DNA from: Microbacterium horticulturae
GTDB lineage: Bacteria; Actinomycetota; Actinomycetes; Actinomycetales; Microbacteriaceae
Length of the DNA: 64,000 nt
Assembly (NCBI RefSeq): GCF_029094505.1
Contig: NZ_CP119108.1
Span: 930,001 to 994,000 of the forward strand
Direction: 5' to 3'
Shown here: piece after piece, positions 10,767-38,221 of the stretch
How the letters are laid out: each line of letters opens with the position of its first letter
Numbering within the stretch: the stretch's first letter is position 1
The notes under the pieces: model-generated
The model's input: only the letters and a program-made list of their open reading frames with translations
Told to the model about the DNA's origin: nothing
Databases searched by the model: none
Made by a program: the position numbers and the translations under genes

Positions 10767-13408
10767 CAGTTGCCGCGGCCGTTGCCGTTGCCGGGGCCGC
10801 CGCTGTCACCGGGGCGCCCGCCGCAGTCGTCGGCTTCGTAGTTCACGGTGATGGCGGCGTCGCGGCTGACGGCGGTGCCCTCGCCCGGCGAGGTGCCGGT
10901 GACCAGACCCGACCCGTCGTCCTTCTGCGTGCACGCCGCGGTCACATTGCTGAACCCTGCAGCCCGCAGAGAGGCCACCGCCTGCGCGGGTGCCTGCCCG
11001 GCGACGCCGGGCACTTCCAGGCCCTCACCGTTGCTCGGACTCAGCGTCACCAGGCTGCCGCCGGCCGTCTTGCCGGCTTCGGGGCTCTGCTCAGCGACCT
11101 TGCCCTTCTCCACGGTCGAGTCGACCTCCTTGCCGACCTTCACCTGGAAGCCGGCATCCGTCAGCGTCTTCGTGGCGTCATCGATCGACATGCCGACCAC
11201 CGAGGGGAGGTTCACGAGCACCTGTCGGGTCAGGGACGAATCGGGCTGTGGGAACGAACCACCCTTATAGATCTTGTCGATGGCACCCTGGATCTGCCGT
11301 GCCAGCGGATATCGCAGGCTGGAGAGCTGATAGTACTTGTAGTACCGGTGGAAGATGTCGGGCGTCGTGTGGTAGCCGCCGTCGGCGTTGCCGACCCAGT
11401 TTGCCGTTGTCACCTTGGTGCTCGAAGTGATCAGCCATGTCTGCAGGTTGTTGTGGGTACCCGTCTTGCCGATCAACTCGGTGCCGTCGTTCGGGTTGCC
11501 CTGCGCCCCCGAGCCGCCTTGCGACAGCGGCCCCTTGAGCGCATACGCGGCCGTCGCCGCGACGTTCTCGTCGAGCACCTGCTCGCACGTGGTGTCGGGG
11601 ACCGGCACGTCCTTCCCCGAAGAATCGGTGATCTTGTCGATGACCTTCGGCTCGCAGTACTTACCCTTGTTCGCGACGGTCGCGTATGCCGCGGCCATCG
11701 CCAGCGGCGAAACGTTATCGGAGCCGATGATCTCTGCCGGCAGCGGAGGGTTGTCCGGGTCGGAGCCGTCGGTGGCCAGGCCGACCGGCTTGCCGTTGCC
11801 CAGCGTGACACCGAGCCGGGTGGCGACCTTTCCGATGTCGCAGAGATCCAGCTGCTGCGCCATACCCATGAACCCCGTATTCAGCGACTGCTTGGTGAAC
11901 GACATGGGCGTGCCGAACACACCCCGCTCCTTGTTGTAGTTCGGGATGTCGCCGTCGTTGACATGCACCGTGCCGCCGTCGACGCAGCTGTCCTTCCAAT
12001 CGGTGCGGTTGTACTTGCGGCCGTCCACGATCTGGTTGACGGATTTGCCCTGCTCGAGCCAGTCCAGGAGGGTGAACAGCTTGAACGTCGATCCAGCATT
12101 GAAGCCGATGGAACCGCCGAGCTTGCTGCTACCGGCGTAGACGACCGACGATTCGCCCTTCTTGGCCTTGCCGCTGGAGACGTAGTCGGTGTTCTGCGCC
12201 ATCGCCAGAACCCGTCCGGTCGAGACCTCGACGCTCACCGAGGTTGAGCCGAGGTCCATGTTGTCTTGGTAGGAAGGGATCCAGTCGTCCTGTGCCTTCT
12301 GGGCGGCCTTCTGCACGGCCGGATCCAGCGTGGTGTAGATCTTGAGACCACCCTTCTGCAGGAGGTCGGCGCCGATATCCGGGTCCTGCTTGAGAACCGC
12401 CGTCACGTAGGCGCAGAAGTAGGCTGCCGAACCGGCCGCGCAGCCGTTCTTGGCCACCTTGATGTGGGGTTCGATCGGCGCCTTGACGGTTTCGTCGTGC
12501 TGCTTCTGGGTGATCTTGCCGTCCTTGAGCATGCGGTCCAAGACGTAGGTCTGCCGCTGCTTGGTGAGCTTGTAGCCGTCCTTCTTGGAGTTGACGCCGT
12601 TGCCGTCGGAGTCGGTGACCGAACCGCCCTCCATGTCGATGCGGTATGTGTTCGGGTTCTGCACCATGCCCGCGAGCGTCGATGCCTGCGAGAGGTTCAG
12701 ATCCTTCGCGTGCACGCCGAAGTAGTGCCACGCGGCGGCCTCGATGCCGTACGTCGTGCCGCCGAAGTTCGCGAGGTTCAGATAGCCGACCAGGATGTCG
12801 TTCTTCGAGTACTTCTGCTCGAGCGAGATGGCGTAGCGCATCTCCTGCAGCTTGCGCTCATAGCCGTCTGCGCCGCTGCTGTCACTGGCCTTCAACCAGC
12901 AGGCGTTCAGCTCTTTGTCGGTCGTGGCCGACCAGTAGCACTTGTTCAACTGCACGTTCTTGACGTACTGCTGGCTGATCGATGACCCGCCCTGGGTCTG
13001 CGAACCGCCCTTGATGTTCGAGATCAGCGCGCGGGTCGTGCCGATGAGATCGATGCCGCCGTGCTCGTAGTAGCGGGGGTCTTCGCTCGAGAGCAGTGCG
13101 TCATACATCACCGTGTTCACCTGCTTGAAGGTGACCGGCGACCTGTTCTGGTCGTAATACGTCGCCATCAGGGTGTTCTTGCCCTTGTCGTCGGTGTAGT
13201 AGATCTTCGACGGCAGGATCAGCTTGTCGATCTGCAAGACGCTCGGCAGGTTGTTGAACATGTCGATCGCGCCGGTGGCAGCGGCACTGGTGACGGCGAC
13301 GGCGGGGGTGACGGTCGCCGTGATCAGGACACCGGCGACAGCGCTCAGGCCGATGAGGCCGAGGACGCCGCCGAGCACGCCGGATGCCTTGCGTTTCGAG
13401 TGGGGCAT
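10766..13408 (-). CDS. Class A penicillin-binding protein with two PASTA domains (PonA2-like)
   Basis: An 880-residue peptidoglycan synthase. In order: membrane anchor (about residues 10-40), GT51 transglycosylase (SSEDPRYYEHGGIDL, GGSSISQQYVKN), transpeptidase with STFK, SLN and KTGT motifs, two PASTA repeats starting LPSVVGMSIDDA and LEVPGVAGQAPA, and a Gly/Asn-rich end. PASTA domains bind peptidoglycan or beta-lactams. The start is the ATG at 13408: a -10 hexamer TACGAT lies exactly 7 nt upstream, suggesting a leaderless transcript. The frame continues upstream but that part is not PBP-like. Confidence 0.95.
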   Translation of the reverse strand: MPHSKRKASGVLGGVLGLIGLSAVAGVLITATVTPAVAVTSAAATGAIDMFNNLPSVLQIDKLILPSKIYYTDDKGKNTLMATYYDQNRSPVTFKQVNTVMYDALLSSEDPRYYEHGGIDLIGTTRALISNIKGGSQTQGGSSISQQYVKNVQLNKCYWSATTDKELNACWLKASDSSGADGYERKLQEMRYAISLEQKYSKNDILVGYLNLANFGGTTYGIEAAAWHYFGVHAKDLNLSQASTLAGMVQNPNTYRIDMEGGSVTDSDGNGVNSKKDGYKLTKQRQTYVLDRMLKDGKITQKQHDETVKAPIEPHIKVAKNGCAAGSAAYFCAYVTAVLKQDPDIGADLLQKGGLKIYTTLDPAVQKAAQKAQDDWIPSYQDNMDLGSTSVSVEVSTGRVLAMAQNTDYVSSGKAKKGESSVVYAGSSKLGGSIGFNAGSTFKLFTLLDWLEQGKSVNQIVDGRKYNRTDWKDSCVDGGTVHVNDGDIPNYNKERGVFGTPMSFTKQSLNTGFMGMAQQLDLCDIGKVATRLGVTLGNGKPVGLATDGSDPDNPPLPAEIIGSDNVSPLAMAAAYATVANKGKYCEPKVIDKITDSSGKDVPVPDTTCEQVLDENVAATAAYALKGPLSQGGSGAQGNPNDGTELIGKTGTHNNLQTWLITSSTKVTTANWVGNADGGYHTTPDIFHRYYKYYQLSSLRYPLARQIQGAIDKIYKGGSFPQPDSSLTRQVLVNLPSVVGMSIDDATKTLTDAGFQVKVGKEVDSTVEKGKVAEQSPEAGKTAGGSLVTLSPSNGEGLEVPGVAGQAPAQAVASLRAAGFSNVTAACTQKDDGSGLVTGTSPGEGTAVSRDAAITVNYEADDCGGRPGDSGGPGNGNGRGN

Positions 13409-33788: not shown

Positions 33789-34685
33789 TCACCGGGCATG
33801 CCTTTCGGTCGGCATGACCGCGGTCCAGGCGACCCCGGTTAGCTCTTCGGAGACCGCCCAGAGGCGGGCCGCAAGGTCGCTGTTGTCCGCCTGCGCGGAA
33901 CGGGGGATCGGCGCGGGCGCACCGCGCATGCGCGCCCACCGGCTCGGGCCGATGAAGCTGTCACCCGGCACATCGGCGAGGGCTGCGTGCAGCACCGGCA
34001 GGGCGCCGCGCTCCGGCGTCTGGGCGAGGGTGCGCACGAGCAGTCGGGTCGCAGCTCCTGCCTCCGAGTAGATGTCCGTCGCGATGAAGCCGGGGTGCGC
34101 GGCGAGCGCGCGAACCGACGAGCCTGCGGCCTCGAGTCGGCGCTGCAGCTCGCTCATGAACAGCAGGCCGGCGAGCTTTGTGCGGCTGTAGGCCCGTGCG
34201 GATGTGTATCCACCGTGCGCCCACGCGAGGTCGTTCCAGATGAAGCGGCCGCTGCGCTCTGCCTGTGACGACACCGTGACGACCCGCCCCGTGATGTGCG
34301 GGAGCAAGAGCACGGTCAGCGCGAAGTGACCCAGATGGCCGGTGCCGAACTGCAGCTCGAAGCCGTCCGCGGTGTGCTGAAGGGCAGGGGATGCCGCGTA
34401 CGCGTTGTTGATGAGCAGGTCGATGTTGCGCGAGCCCCACTGCGAGACGAAGGAGTGAACAGCCGACAGGTCGGCGAGGTCGAGTCGGCGCACCTCGGTG
34501 CTGCCGGCGATGCGGCTCGCGGCATCCTCTCCCTTCGACACATCACGGACCGCGAGCACGACGTGGCAGCCGGCGGCGGCGAGCGCCCGCGCGGTGGCCA
34601 GACCGATCCCCGCAGACGCGCCGGTGATCACCGCCGTCCGTGCGGAGAGGTTGGGAAGGGTAAGACTCGGGAGTGAAGTAGGCAT
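33789..34685 (-). CDS. SDR-family oxidoreductase (retinol dehydrogenase-like)
   Basis: A 298-residue short-chain dehydrogenase. The NAD(P)-binding TGASAGIGLA motif is at about residues 21-29, NNAY follows, then the active-site Ser (TVSSQ) and YxxxK as YSRTK. It is longer at the C terminus than classical SDRs and similar to retinol dehydrogenase/WW-domain oxidoreductase types. It is divergent from a TetR gene across a 63-bp gap with two palindromes, so that regulator probably controls it. TACTAT lies 7 nt before the ATG, within one palindrome. Confidence 0.88.
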   Translation of the reverse strand: MPTSLPSLTLPNLSARTAVITGASAGIGLATARALAAAGCHVVLAVRDVSKGEDAASRIAGSTEVRRLDLADLSAVHSFVSQWGSRNIDLLINNAYAASPALQHTADGFELQFGTGHLGHFALTVLLLPHITGRVVTVSSQAERSGRFIWNDLAWAHGGYTSARAYSRTKLAGLLFMSELQRRLEAAGSSVRALAAHPGFIATDIYSEAGAATRLLVRTLAQTPERGALPVLHAALADVPGDSFIGPSRWARMRGAPAPIPRSAQADNSDLAARLWAVSEELTGVAWTAVMPTERHAR

Positions 34686-34687
34686 GG

Positions 34688-34700
34688 CCTACATAGTAGG
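34688..34700. promoter_or_regulatory. Palindrome over the SDR gene -10 box
   Basis: CCTACATAGTAGG, a 5+3+5 inverted repeat that contains TACTAT, the likely -10 box of the SDR gene on the minus strand. A regulator bound here would block that promoter. Confidence 0.5.
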
Positions 34701-34704
34701 CGAC

Positions 34705-34719
34705 GCCAACAATGTTGGC
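34705..34719. promoter_or_regulatory. Candidate TetR operator in the SDR/TetR gap
   Basis: GCCAACAATGTTGGC, a perfect 6+3+6 inverted repeat. It overlaps TTGGCA (34715-34720), which lies 16 nt from TAGAGT (34737-34742), the likely promoter of the TetR gene. This is a typical autoregulatory arrangement. Confidence 0.6.
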
Positions 34720-34748
34720 AAGGGATACATTGGTGATAGAGTGGGTGC

Positions 34749-35324
34749 ATGACGGGCGTGCCCTACCACCACGGCAATCTGCGCGCGGTGCTGCTCGTGG
34801 CCGCCGAGCAGACGCTGCGGGAGGGGGGGATCGATGAGATCTCTCTGCGCGATCTGGCGCGTCGCAGCGGAGTGAGCAAGAGCGCGCCGAACCGCCACTT
34901 CCGCGACAGGCAGGCGCTGCTGGCAGCCCTTGCCGTGCGCGGCTTCGAGCGGCTCGACGACGAGATCACACAGGCGGTCGCACGTGCCGGTGATGTTTGC
35001 GCCGCACGGGTGCGCGCAGCGGCGGCTGCTTTCGTCGCCTTCGCCGTGCGCGACGGGGCCCTGCTGGAGCTGATGTTCACGATGGCCAAAACCGAGGGCC
35101 GCAGCGATGTCGGCACGGCGGCGGAGCGGGTCTTCACTCGGCTCGGCGCACTCATCGAGGAGGGGCAGGCATCCGGCGAGCTGCGCGGGGGAGACACGAC
35201 GCGCCTCAAGCTGCTGCTGGCCGCCACGCTGCAGGGGATCGCGACGCTCGTGGCGAGCGGTCGAGTGCCCGCAGAACTGACAGACGACCTCATCGATGAC
35301 GCGGTGGCGTTGTTTCGCGGATGA
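34749..35324 (+). CDS. TetR-family transcriptional regulator
   Basis: A 191-residue regulator. The N-terminal HTH reads ISLRDLARRSGVSKSAPNRHFRDRQALLAAL, followed by a TetR_C-like helical ligand domain. The start MTGVPYHHGNLRAVLL is typical of the TetR/WHG subgroup. The ATG is 6 nt after TAGAGT, so the mRNA is probably leaderless. It likely represses itself and the divergent SDR gene. The ligand is unknown. Confidence 0.92.
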   Translation: MTGVPYHHGNLRAVLLVAAEQTLREGGIDEISLRDLARRSGVSKSAPNRHFRDRQALLAALAVRGFERLDDEITQAVARAGDVCAARVRAAAAAFVAFAVRDGALLELMFTMAKTEGRSDVGTAAERVFTRLGALIEEGQASGELRGGDTTRLKLLLAATLQGIATLVASGRVPAELTDDLIDDAVALFRG

Positions 35325-35341
35325 ACGTCTCGACGTCGGAG

Positions 35342-35414
35342 TGGGCCCGGAGGGGCTCGAACCCTCGACCCGCGGATTAAAAGTCCGATGCTCTGCCAAC
35401 TGAGCTACAGGCCC
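35342..35414 (-). tRNA. tRNA-Lys (anticodon UUU)
   Basis: The reverse strand folds as a 73-nt tRNA. The acceptor GGGCCTG pairs with CGGGCCC including one G-U, the anticodon loop is CTTTTAA (TTT), and the T-arm is GAGGGTTCGAGCCCCTC. CCA is not encoded. Confidence 0.95.
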
Positions 35415-35456: not shown

Positions 35457-36668
35457 TCACTCCGCCACGGGGATCGTCGCGGTCACGTGGAACGCGCCGT
35501 CGTCGCTCGCGCCCGACGTGACCGCGCCGCCCAGGCGCCGGATGTCGGCCCGCGTGCGGCTGAGGGTCATCGCGTGCTCCGCCTGCGCGGTCAGCCGCCC
35601 GGGCCCGTGCCCCACTTCGATCTCGACGGCGTGGGGCAGATAGCGGACGGCGGCCGTGGCATCCACCCCTCTCGTGCGGGTCAGCACGAGCGCCGCGCCT
35701 TCCTGTAAGGCGCGGAACGCGACCTCGTCGACGTGAACCGGCAGCCGGCGCTCGTCGCCCTCGATCGTCAGGGTGATGGGCATCCCGGCGGTCTGCAACC
35801 CGGCGACGAGTTCGCGCGCATTCGACAGCGATGGCTCGGGCGCGGTGGGCAGGGGAGCGCGCACGATCGAGATGCCGCCGATGCCCGTCCCCTTCGGGTT
35901 CTTCGCCTGACCGTCCGAACCGGTCTGCTCGCGCAGCCAGGCCGCGAAGTCTTTGCCGCGCACCTGTGCGGCGGTGCCGGCCAGCAGGCTGCCGTCACGC
36001 ATCTGCCGACCCGAAGAACCGGGCAGCGAGAGCTCGACGACGCGGCCCTGCAACCCGGCGGCGCGGCCGTAGCGGCGGGCCATATCGGCCATCCGCTCGA
36101 CGCGAGGACCGGCGATGTCGGCCACGCGCCCCGCCGGGGCTCCCTCGGCGAGCTCGACGAGTCGTTCGGCGACCTCGGACGCATCGATCGGCTGCGAGCG
36201 CATCGTCGGCACGAGCACGAACGGGCCGGTCTTCATACGCTCGAACATCTGCCGCGCGAACTCGTGAAACTGCGTCGCCCGTACGAGCGAGTAGGGAATG
36301 GCCCCGGCCTCGACCGCGCGCTCCTGCGCACGCTTGCCCTGGTAGTAGCCGTACCCCTTCTCGGCGCTGTCGATGCCGACGATCGACAGCACGACGTGGT
36401 GGCGTACGCCCGCGCGCTCCTCGGCAGCCAGCAGATTCTTCGTCACGGTCTCGAAGAAGCGGATGGATGCTGCAGCCGACATCGACGGAGTGCTGGTGAC
36501 ATCGATCACCACGTCGACGTCGCCGAGCACGGCATCCACCCCCTCGCCGGTGACGAGGTCCACACCCGTGGACCGTGAGATGACGATGGGCTCGTGTCCG
36601 TGGTTCAGGACGAGGTCGGCGACCAGGCGCCCGACCGTCCCCGTGCCTCCGGCGATGGCGATCCGCAT
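35457..36668 (-). CDS. NmrA-like NAD(P)-binding protein fused to a degenerate histidine-kinase-type ATPase domain
   Basis: A 403-residue protein. Residues 1 to about 248 form an atypical SDR/NmrA domain: MRIAIAGGTGTVGRLVADLV, then HVVLSIVGID and YYQGKRAQE. Residues about 265-403 follow the ATP-binding domain of NarL-type histidine kinases: LVAGLQTAGMPITLTIEGD, then VDEVAFRALQEGAALVLTRT, AVEIEVGHGPGRL and RLGGAVTSG. The N-box Asn and G1-box Asp are replaced, and there is no HisKA domain or His. The ATG is 6 nt after TACGCT. It is divergent from the AraC gene. I know of no named family with this architecture. Confidence 0.75.
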   Translation of the reverse strand: MRIAIAGGTGTVGRLVADLVLNHGHEPIVISRSTGVDLVTGEGVDAVLGDVDVVIDVTSTPSMSAAASIRFFETVTKNLLAAEERAGVRHHVVLSIVGIDSAEKGYGYYQGKRAQERAVEAGAIPYSLVRATQFHEFARQMFERMKTGPFVLVPTMRSQPIDASEVAERLVELAEGAPAGRVADIAGPRVERMADMARRYGRAAGLQGRVVELSLPGSSGRQMRDGSLLAGTAAQVRGKDFAAWLREQTGSDGQAKNPKGTGIGGISIVRAPLPTAPEPSLSNARELVAGLQTAGMPITLTIEGDERRLPVHVDEVAFRALQEGAALVLTRTRGVDATAAVRYLPHAVEIEVGHGPGRLTAQAEHAMTLSRTRADIRRLGGAVTSGASDDGAFHVTATIPVAE

Positions 36669-36674
36669 GGTCCG

Positions 36675-36697
36675 AGCGTACTGCCGTCCGCTAGCCT
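36675..36697. promoter_or_regulatory. Back-to-back leaderless promoters of the NmrA-fusion and AraC genes
   Basis: The 35-bp gap between two divergent starts holds two -10 hexamers: TACGCT on the minus strand (36675-36680) and TAGCCT on the plus strand (36692-36697). Each is followed by CGGACC and then the start codon. RNA polymerase cannot occupy both at once. Confidence 0.65.
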
Positions 36698-36703
36698 CGG
36701 ACC

Positions 36704-37111
36704 GTGGCATCCGCCCCCCAGAGTCCACAGACCCTCGCGCACCTGCGACGCGCCCGCGACCTCATGGATCGCGAGTACGCGCGCCCACTGGATGTGCCCA
36801 CGATGGCGGCACGCGCGTTCATGTCACCCGCGCATTTCTCGCGCGAATTCAAGACCGCCTACGGCGAGACGCCGTACGCCTACCTGATGACGCGACGCAT
36901 CGAACGGGCGATGGCGCTGCTCCGCAGCGGTTTCACCGTGACGGATGCCTGCACCGCCGTCGGGGCGACGTCGCTCGGTTCGTTCAGCTCGACGTTCACC
37001 GAGATCGTCGGCGAGGCCCCCAGCGCCTATCGGGCCCGGCCGCACGACGACACCGAAGCGCTGCCCGAATGCTTCGCGCGCGTGCTCACCCGGCCGACGC
37101 GGTACGCCTGA
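36704..37111 (+). CDS. AraC-family regulator, HTH domain only
   Basis: A 135-residue protein consisting of the AraC double HTH: LDVPTMAARAFMSPAHFSREFKTAYGETPYAYL and FTVTDACTAVGATSLGSFSSTFTEIVGEAPSAYR. There is no effector domain. The GTG start lies 6 nt after TAGCCT. A VOC-family gene follows 52 nt downstream; stand-alone AraC HTH proteins are often paired with glyoxalase-like genes, so co-regulation is likely. Confidence 0.9.
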   Translation: MASAPQSPQTLAHLRRARDLMDREYARPLDVPTMAARAFMSPAHFSREFKTAYGETPYAYLMTRRIERAMALLRSGFTVTDACTAVGATSLGSFSSTFTEIVGEAPSAYRARPHDDTEALPECFARVLTRPTRYA

Positions 37112-37163: not shown

Positions 37164-37574
37164 ATGGCAGACATCAGATTCGGATACTTTCCGCTCACGG
37201 TCGACGACGTCGACGAAGCCCTGACCTTCTATCGCGACGCGCTCGGATTGACCGTGCTCAACGACGTCTCGGGCAACGGCTGGCGCTGGCTCAGCATGGG
37301 CCTTCCCGAGCAGCCCGGCGTCGTGCTCGTGCTTTCGGCGCCTGGCGCGGGACGCTCGCCCGACGACGCAGACGCGCTTGCGCGGCTCGTCGCCAAAGGT
37401 GCAGGACCCGGCCCCGTCGTCTTCGCGACGAGCGATCTCGACGCGACCTTCGAACGGGTGCGCGCAACCGGCGCCGAGGTGCTGCAGGAGCCCATGGACC
37501 AGCCGTGGGGCCCGCGGGACTGCGCGTTCCGCGACCCGGCCGGCAACCTCGTGCGGATCAACGGCACCGCGTGA
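37164..37574 (+). CDS. VOC-family (glyoxalase/bleomycin-resistance-like) protein
   Basis: A 136-residue protein with two beta-alpha-beta-beta-beta units: GYFPLTVDDVDEALTFYRDALGL at the N terminus, and QPWGPRDCAFRDPAGNLVRI at the C terminus. Metal ligands of a glyoxalase are not clearly all present, so activity is uncertain. The ATG is 7 nt after TAGCGT (37151-37156). It follows the AraC gene. Confidence 0.88.
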   Translation: MADIRFGYFPLTVDDVDEALTFYRDALGLTVLNDVSGNGWRWLSMGLPEQPGVVLVLSAPGAGRSPDDADALARLVAKGAGPGPVVFATSDLDATFERVRATGAEVLQEPMDQPWGPRDCAFRDPAGNLVRINGTA

Positions 37575-37591: not shown

Positions 37592-38221
37592 GTGCAGGAT
37601 TCGGGCAGGGAGTTCCACAAGCCGGTGCGTCGCGCCAGTGAGGAGTTCGACAGGTTGTTCGGGGCGCACGACCCCGCCGAGGCGACCCGCATCGCGCACT
37701 CGACCGCGACCGCGCTGCTGTCGCGGGTGCGCGCCGACCCCGACACCGAGACCGTCGACCGGCTCGTCGACTTCACGCGCACGCACGGGATCGACGACAT
37801 CGCCGAGCTCTGGTCGCGCGCGCCCGCGCGGAGTCTTCCGGGGTCGCTGTGGAACCTGTACCTGCTGCAGCTGATGATCCACCGCGACCCGGCCACAGCG
37901 GCACTGTTGTACGAGCGCGGACGAGTCGAGATCAGCTCGGCCGACCCCGTGATCGCGGGCGCGCCGGTGCCCTCCGGGCCGGACGAACTCGTCGCCACCG
38001 TCGACCGCATTCTGCGCGGCGTGTTCGACGGCGACTTCGCCGTGGCGCTCGACCGGGCCGCGGCGTTCAGCCGGGTGCAGGCATCGGGTGCGACGCACGT
38101 GGCCGACGACTCCGAGCCCGAGCGGGCGACGACGCTCACCCGACGCGCGTCGCGCCTGGCCACGATCGCGGCCGACCTTTCGGCCAGCGCCGCACTGTGG
38201 CGGATGGATGCGCTGAGCTGA
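37592..38221 (+). CDS. Conserved hypothetical helical protein
   Basis: A 209-residue protein I do not recognise with certainty. It is mostly helical, starting MQDSGREFHKPVRRASEEFDRLF, with a Trp/Leu-rich centre (SLWNLYLLQLMIHRD) and an Ala/Arg-rich end. It has no signal peptide or membrane segment. The GTG start lies exactly 6 nt after TAGCCT (37580-37585), and codon use matches the neighbours, so it is a real gene. It follows the VOC gene by 17 nt and may share its transcript. Confidence 0.75.
   Translation: MQDSGREFHKPVRRASEEFDRLFGAHDPAEATRIAHSTATALLSRVRADPDTETVDRLVDFTRTHGIDDIAELWSRAPARSLPGSLWNLYLLQLMIHRDPATAALLYERGRVEISSADPVIAGAPVPSGPDELVATVDRILRGVFDGDFAVALDRAAAFSRVQASGATHVADDSEPERATTLTRRASRLATIAADLSASAALWRMDALS

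Follow-up and report, generated by a model that had tools for sequence, protein, structure and literature searches.

An SDR domain fused to an altered histidine-kinase ATPase domain in a lineage of Microbacterium

In the genome of Microbacterium horticulturae, one gene appears to join an oxidoreductase-like domain to a part of a bacterial histidine kinase, which raises the questions of whether the two parts form one protein, from where the second part was derived and what it may do beside an enzyme. The gene lies on the minus strand (35457..36668) of the window, that is, the whole stretch of 64,000 nucleotides that was analyzed (contig NZ_CP119108.1, positions 930,001 to 994,000).

The fusion gene and its carriers

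The gene is an uninterrupted open reading frame of 403 amino acids, running from an ATG at 36666-36668 to a stop codon at 35457-35459. Residues 1-250 (35919..36668, minus strand) form an SDR domain, as indicated by a match to NAD_binding_10 above the cut-off and by conserved columns; residues 251-271 (35856..35918, minus strand) form a linker that varies among relatives; and residues 272-403 (35460..35855, minus strand) form a putative pseudo-ATPase domain of GHKL derivation, with matches to kinase ATPase domains in profile searches and by hhalign, and with altered N, G1 and G2 boxes. The domain order given in the original prediction, an NmrA/atypical SDR domain followed by a kinase-derived tail, was borne out, with the SDR domain at about 1-250 and the tail at about 272-403. 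Weak matches of the protein to RPOC_hybrid, MltB, uL10 and the like were regarded as chance.

The same architecture, which the original prediction had suggested searching for in other genomes, was found in 21 proteins including that of the window; they comprise 402-429 residues, and among them are one with a frameshift in its tail and one that looks chimeric. Their identity to the protein of the window is 62-93%, with two at 55%. At E <= 1e-25, the tail profile matched in 7 of 366 Microbacterium genomes, and among 396 genomes sampled evenly from the order, the window's own genome alone matched. The named carriers are Microbacterium luticocti, M. elymi, Microbacterium sp. SYP-A9085 and a MAG, and protein names add M. 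protaetiae, M. bovistercoris and M. kribbense. A full-length tail is present in six of the seven carriers; in M. elymi (G106), the fusion is split over two frames in the tail (L052 6884-8770 and 6907-7257), and since this genome is rated 68% complete, the break may be a sequencing error, or else a mutation. A plasmid-borne fusion was rejected, since among 368 matching plasmid records, none reached 80% query coverage. Two metagenome proteins, P0018 and P0014, are nearly identical from about column 150 and strongly different in their first parts, a pattern that is probably due to an assembly chimera and possibly to recombination.

We give practically no credence to the idea that a frameshift or an assembly error has joined two genes here. 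The tail's missing Pfam match is the one point in its favor, and it is ruled out by the recurrence of the same fusion, at full length and with 55-93% identity, in the seven carriers and in metagenome contigs; the case of two separate genes with a frameshift in this genome, by which the original prediction could have failed, is excluded on the same ground. Relatives of this architecture, where named by the sources, are called SDR or NAD(P)H-binding protein, YbjT, or hypothetical. Public protein names cover the SDR half alone, and a third of the chain has been overlooked; among the titles and abstract openings returned by searches of the open-access literature, none describes the fusion.

Origin and alteration of the tail

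In a Pfam/NCBIfam scan, the tail reached no family cut-off, and no Pfam HATPase model, HATPase_c included, matched at E <= 1 in 22 fusion proteins and fragments; the genuine kinase L088 also falls below the Pfam HATPase_c cut-off (25.4 vs 26.4 bits). Other comparisons support the descent from the ATPase domain of a NarL-type kinase that had been predicted. The kinase-like segments quoted for it are all present in the reading frame, and a search of 5.8 billion sequences with residues 255-403 (E <= 0.01) returned 20 proteins, namely 16 fusions or fragments and four HisKA_3 + HATPase_c proteins (E 2.5e-9 to 6.4e-3, the best at 37% identity). With a profile built from the tails of six carriers, matches at E <= 1e-12 were obtained in 97 of the 398 genomes of the family, among them the window's own, and the matching frames span about 380 residues or more; outside the fusions, the top match (E 1.1e-27) contains HisKA_3 and, slightly below the cut-off, HATPase_c, and it is directly followed by a gene that by eye encodes a NarL-type response regulator. 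When 14 fusion tails were compared with 39 kinase domains by hhalign, the probability was 99.8% over 131 columns, compared with <= 1.2% for 20 column-shuffled controls. Against solved structures, the tail profile had a single weak match (E 0.87), and the nearest kinase, L088, matched DevS (3zxo), VraS (4gt8) and DesK (3gie). A protein search at the altered domain's own size returned the fusion fragment P0020 and five proteins annotated with a kinase ATPase domain, so that in this search the altered domain was found only inside fusions or a fragment of one. Judged from these profile comparisons, the tail (about 272-403) is a homologue of the ATPase domain of NarL/DesK-type (HisKA_3) histidine kinases, which it resembles in its sequence profile over the 131 columns, in its scaffold residues and, as judged from the alignment, in the order of strands and helices; by homology, its fold would be GHKL. 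In contrast to these kinases, the fusion has its ATPase domain behind an SDR domain and lacks HisKA_3: as predicted, no HisKA-family model, and hence no DHp domain with a phospho-accepting His, was matched at E <= 1 in 22 members.

The fusions also differ from NarL/DesK-type kinases in lacking the N-box Asn and His, G1 and most G2 residues. This comparison was based on 14 fusion rows, of which 13 are distinct (L023 and P0012 are at zero distance), and on 39 kinase rows that are the best matches to the fusion profile, hence biased toward likeness, and that were mostly recognized by profile match and alignment (with a Pfam scan for L088 alone and Pfam labels for P0122-P0126). The 14 fusion rows are also those of the hhalign comparison, of the tree of ATPase domains and of the charge comparison below. 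The N-box Asn, found in 39 of 39 kinase rows, occurs in 0 of 14 fusion rows, where it is replaced by Leu (11) or Ile (3), and the N-box His, found in 36 of 39 kinase rows, occurs in one fusion row, with Arg in 13 of 14. The G1 Asp is present in 27 of 39 kinase rows (otherwise Asn in 9 and Ser in 3) and in 0 of 14 fusion rows (His 13, Gln 1), so the replacement of Asn and Asp expected from the single protein of the window extends family-wide. The G2 glycines, on which the original prediction was silent, are largely lost too: positions 366, 368 and 371 are Gly in 38, 39 and 39 of the 39 kinase rows and in 0, 3 and 0 of the 14 fusion rows. In place of these residues, others have become fixed in the fusions (Leu/Ile327 in 14 of 14 rows, Arg331 in 13, His354 in 13 and Arg371 in 12), and the scaffold residues G295, G304, R307, Q322, R342, E349, R373, G380, G381, G391, A397 and P400 are kept in all 14. 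The mean charge of the segments of the former pocket is +4.2 in fusions (3 to 6) and +1.4 in kinases (0 to 5), with overlapping ranges, and the charge of the whole domain is similar in both. The ATP site of the tail has thus been altered rather than just eroded.

Pairwise omega among the six intact carriers (15 pairs), a rough measure here given the high synonymous divergence, was 0.22-0.61 for the tail, 0.14-0.44 for the SDR half and 0.24-1.44 for the linker, and the tail evolved faster than the SDR half in 15 of 15 pairs. In the tree of SDR domains, all fusions lie to one side of a single branch (97% SH-aLRT); this tree took every second of 98 single-domain proteins and excluded P0018 (chimeric-looking by eye), P0019 (frameshifted) and the fragments P0020 and P0055. 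The same holds for the tree of ATPase domains (100/100). A GyrB tree of 30 genomes groups six carriers in one clade (100/99) and places the carrier G159 near it, with the non-carrier G114 between them at weaker support. This distribution requires two changes, meaning either two gains or a gain followed by a loss; a single gain is favored because the same neighbor and the same altered tail are found across carriers, and the position of the close non-carrier G114 amid carriers then means that loss was tolerated, unless there were two gains. At the AraC locus of G114 (L079 1896-3227), other reading frames, reductase-like and HNH-like by eye, occupy the place of the fusion.

In a lineage of Microbacterium, the ATPase domain of a NarL/DesK-type kinase, without the phospho-acceptor domain, has therefore been joined to a complete SDR domain. 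Of the ATP-site residues tested, the fused domain has lost nearly all, with Leu, His and Arg now fixed there under constraint, and its scaffold has been kept.

The SDR half and possible roles of the tail

The N-terminal part scored above the cut-offs of NAD_binding_10 (E 4.1e-11, 43.5 bits against 27.2) and Epimerase (22.8 bits against 20.9) and slightly below the curated cut-off of NmrA (PF05368; 25.9 bits against 27, for P0001). Thus, of the label NmrA-type, assignment to the SDRs stood and membership in the NmrA family did not. Gly7, Gly8, Gly10, Gly13, Arg32, Ser95, Tyr108 and Lys112 are conserved in 21 of 21 fusions, a tally that counts P0018 and P0019, so that every fusion has the Rossmann glycine motif (residues 7-13) and the Ser/Tyr-xxx-Lys site (Ser95, Tyr108-xxx-Lys112) of an atypical SDR of the NAD_binding_10 kind. 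Among 98 single-domain relatives, Gly7, Gly10, Gly13, Arg32 and Lys112 occur in 98, Gly8 and Tyr108 in 97 and Ser95 in 86. From what is known of SDRs, we take the conserved Gly, Arg, Ser, Tyr and Lys residues to be cofactor and catalytic sites; a YxxxK-S triad is named in PMC3793261. Because the Ser/Tyr-xxx-Lys site and the glycine motif are both kept, this half is more likely to be an enzyme than a sensor of the NmrA kind, and the "redox-sensing" role first proposed for it is unsupported as worded. We infer that the SDR half has oxidoreductase activity, probably dependent on NADP(H). NmrA, HSCARG and YtfG share its NAD(P)-binding Rossmann fold with weak sequence similarity, and the single-domain profile matched an NmrA family regulator (8r2j, E 2.3e-7) and YtfG (2zcu, E 2e-4) distantly; we know of no kinase-derived tail in these proteins.

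Closer relatives are single-domain proteins, to which the SDR half is about 45-62% identical. Matches to the SDR half at E <= 1e-30, fusions included, were found in 199 of 295 Microbacterium genomes, and in four of the seven carriers, no single-domain relative was found at E <= 0.001. An ECF41-like sigma factor pattern was found within 1.5 kb in 21 of 40 single-domain loci, and two sigma factors scanned there were above the SigJ cut-off and matched SnoaL_2. According to PMC3426412, ECF41 factors adjoin NmrA/Epimerase-domain genes of this kind and their neighbors were the sole targets detected in two species tested, the neighbor there being a decarboxylase. The SDR half shares catalytic residues with these ECF41 (SigJ)-linked single-domain proteins, and the fusion differs from them by its extra tail and by loci without an ECF41 signature (none in 13 loci spanning the seven carriers and none in the window) or promoter motif. 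An ECF41 promoter at the fusion was rejected, the sole motif match in the window being at 10804; a SigJ-type factor is encoded elsewhere in the genome in six of seven carriers. No separate kinase gene was found beside single-domain SDRs at E <= 1e-3 (40 loci, flanks up to 1.5 kb).

We consider the best explanation, with a probability of roughly 0.6, to be that the protein is an SDR enzyme whose pseudo-ATPase tail has been repurposed for docking a partner or for binding a ligand other than ATP, in line with the interaction or ligand module suggested in the original prediction. The tail would then have neither kinase activity nor ordinary ATP binding and would act as a docking or allosteric module, in which the rebuilt, Arg-rich former pocket may bind an anionic ligand or another protein and thereby position or tune the SDR half. 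Against it stand the Gly368 kept in 3 of 14 fusions, the absence of the G1 Asp from 12 of 39 kinase rows as well, the overlapping charge ranges, the faster evolution of the tail than of the SDR half and the place of the non-carrier G114 among carriers. The family may be viewed as a compact natural experiment in which one genus has retained a kinase catalytic domain without its ATP site on an apparently working enzyme, and if the tail is a partner or ligand module, the role of altered GHKL domains would be testable in a single two-domain protein. Tentatively, the kinase domain might even have become a receptor that allosterically controls the oxidoreductase and reads a new anionic signal or partner through its rebuilt Arg-rich pocket; if true, the GHKL fold would have gained a new use, and an enzyme would have taken over a part of a two-component system.

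Known kinase-derived proteins offer partial parallels. SspH of Streptomyces is, like the tail, a kinase ATPase domain without a phospho-acceptor domain, and it is able to act alone; however, it is a single domain that retains both its Asn and its Asp and cannot function without them, whereas the fusion has lost both and has an SDR domain attached (PMC9137472, as far as consulted). RocA and FasC of group A Streptococcus and DivL are kinase-derived and proposed to act without kinase activity of their own. RocA and FasC, as proposed pseudokinases, still have their membrane and DHp parts and could do without the ATPase domain when overexpressed, whereas the fusion keeps the ATPase domain alone. 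The consulted portions of the SspH, RocA and FasC literature describe no fusion to an oxidoreductase.

The SspH example bears on the idea of an unusual mode by which the tail would still bind ATP or another nucleotide, perhaps for control of the SDR half by energy status. The kept scaffold would suit such binding, and SspH itself has an unusual G1 box and is still G1-dependent, but the Asn and Asp that it needs are gone in all 14 fusion rows (PMC9137472, in part), and we regard nucleotide binding as very doubtful. Hardly better are the chances of a decaying relic without function. The faster evolution of the tail in every pair, the frame broken within it in G106 and the lack of the gene at the AraC locus of the close relative G114 would fit decay, but the omega of the tail (0.22-0.61), its full length in all carriers except G106, where the incomplete genome may explain the break, and the new residues fixed at the old ATP site argue for a maintained domain; "kinase relic", the original wording, is too weak for a constrained tail with new conserved residues at former ATP-site positions. 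Somewhat less improbable, though still unlikely, is a redox-responsive regulator whose SDR half is mainly a cofactor sensor and whose tail sets the activity of a NarL-type kinase, a response regulator or the neighboring AraC protein by docking onto it. There are precedents for regulators with an SDR fold, for example NmrA and HSCARG (PMC3793261, in part), the tail derives from a signaling protein and a divergent AraC gene accompanies the fusion in all carriers, but the kept catalytic Ser, Tyr and Lys would be unexpected in a pure sensor, and the single-domain relatives often neighbor a sigma factor of which the SDR-type gene is the presumed target (PMC3426412, in part).

The AraC neighbor and its surroundings

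The divergent AraC-family gene (36704..37111, plus strand; 135 aa; HTH_18 E 3e-20) is short in each of the seven carriers. The intergenic region that it was predicted to share with the fusion gene is indeed common to both, with 35 bp between the two start codons (36669..36703), and a TAnnnT hexamer lies 6 nt ahead of each start codon in the window as well as in G206, G112 and G236; the spacer is longer in G284 and G106 and different in G159. A sigma-70 scan found no consensus in this region, and the paired hexamers are possibly back-to-back leaderless divergent promoters. A near-perfect inverted repeat (36666-36706; 11-nt arms, 91%, 19 nt apart) covers both start codons and may be considered a candidate AraC operator. 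A scan for GGTCCGAG-N19-CTCGGACC returned one perfect match, but two matches with <= 3 mismatches against 1.2 expected; the arms are variable in relatives.

Adjoining the AraC gene is a VOC/glyoxalase-fold gene (37164..37574, plus strand; Glyoxalase E 2.4e-21), and at 37592-38221 lies a gene of 209 residues with no Pfam or NCBIfam match, of which similar frames (about 210 residues) occur at the AraC locus of several carriers and non-carriers. Another gene, an aminotransferase by eye, recurs at the loci of several carriers. In G159, the fusion is placed between a SigK-type sigma/anti-sigma pair and AraC, and several non-carriers have a pair that looks similar by eye directly before AraC, which suggests that the fusion was probably inserted there.

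On the other side of the fusion gene, the window holds a second, classical SDR gene (adh_short) with a divergent TetR-family gene (33789-35324), adjoined by a tRNA-Lys (35341-35414). In G112, a stretch of 83-84 bp (L050 about 10870-10951), with 89% identity to the part of the fusion gene that encodes the N box, is found about 2.5 kb downstream of this gene, where the frame context differs, and may be the trace of a small duplication or rearrangement.
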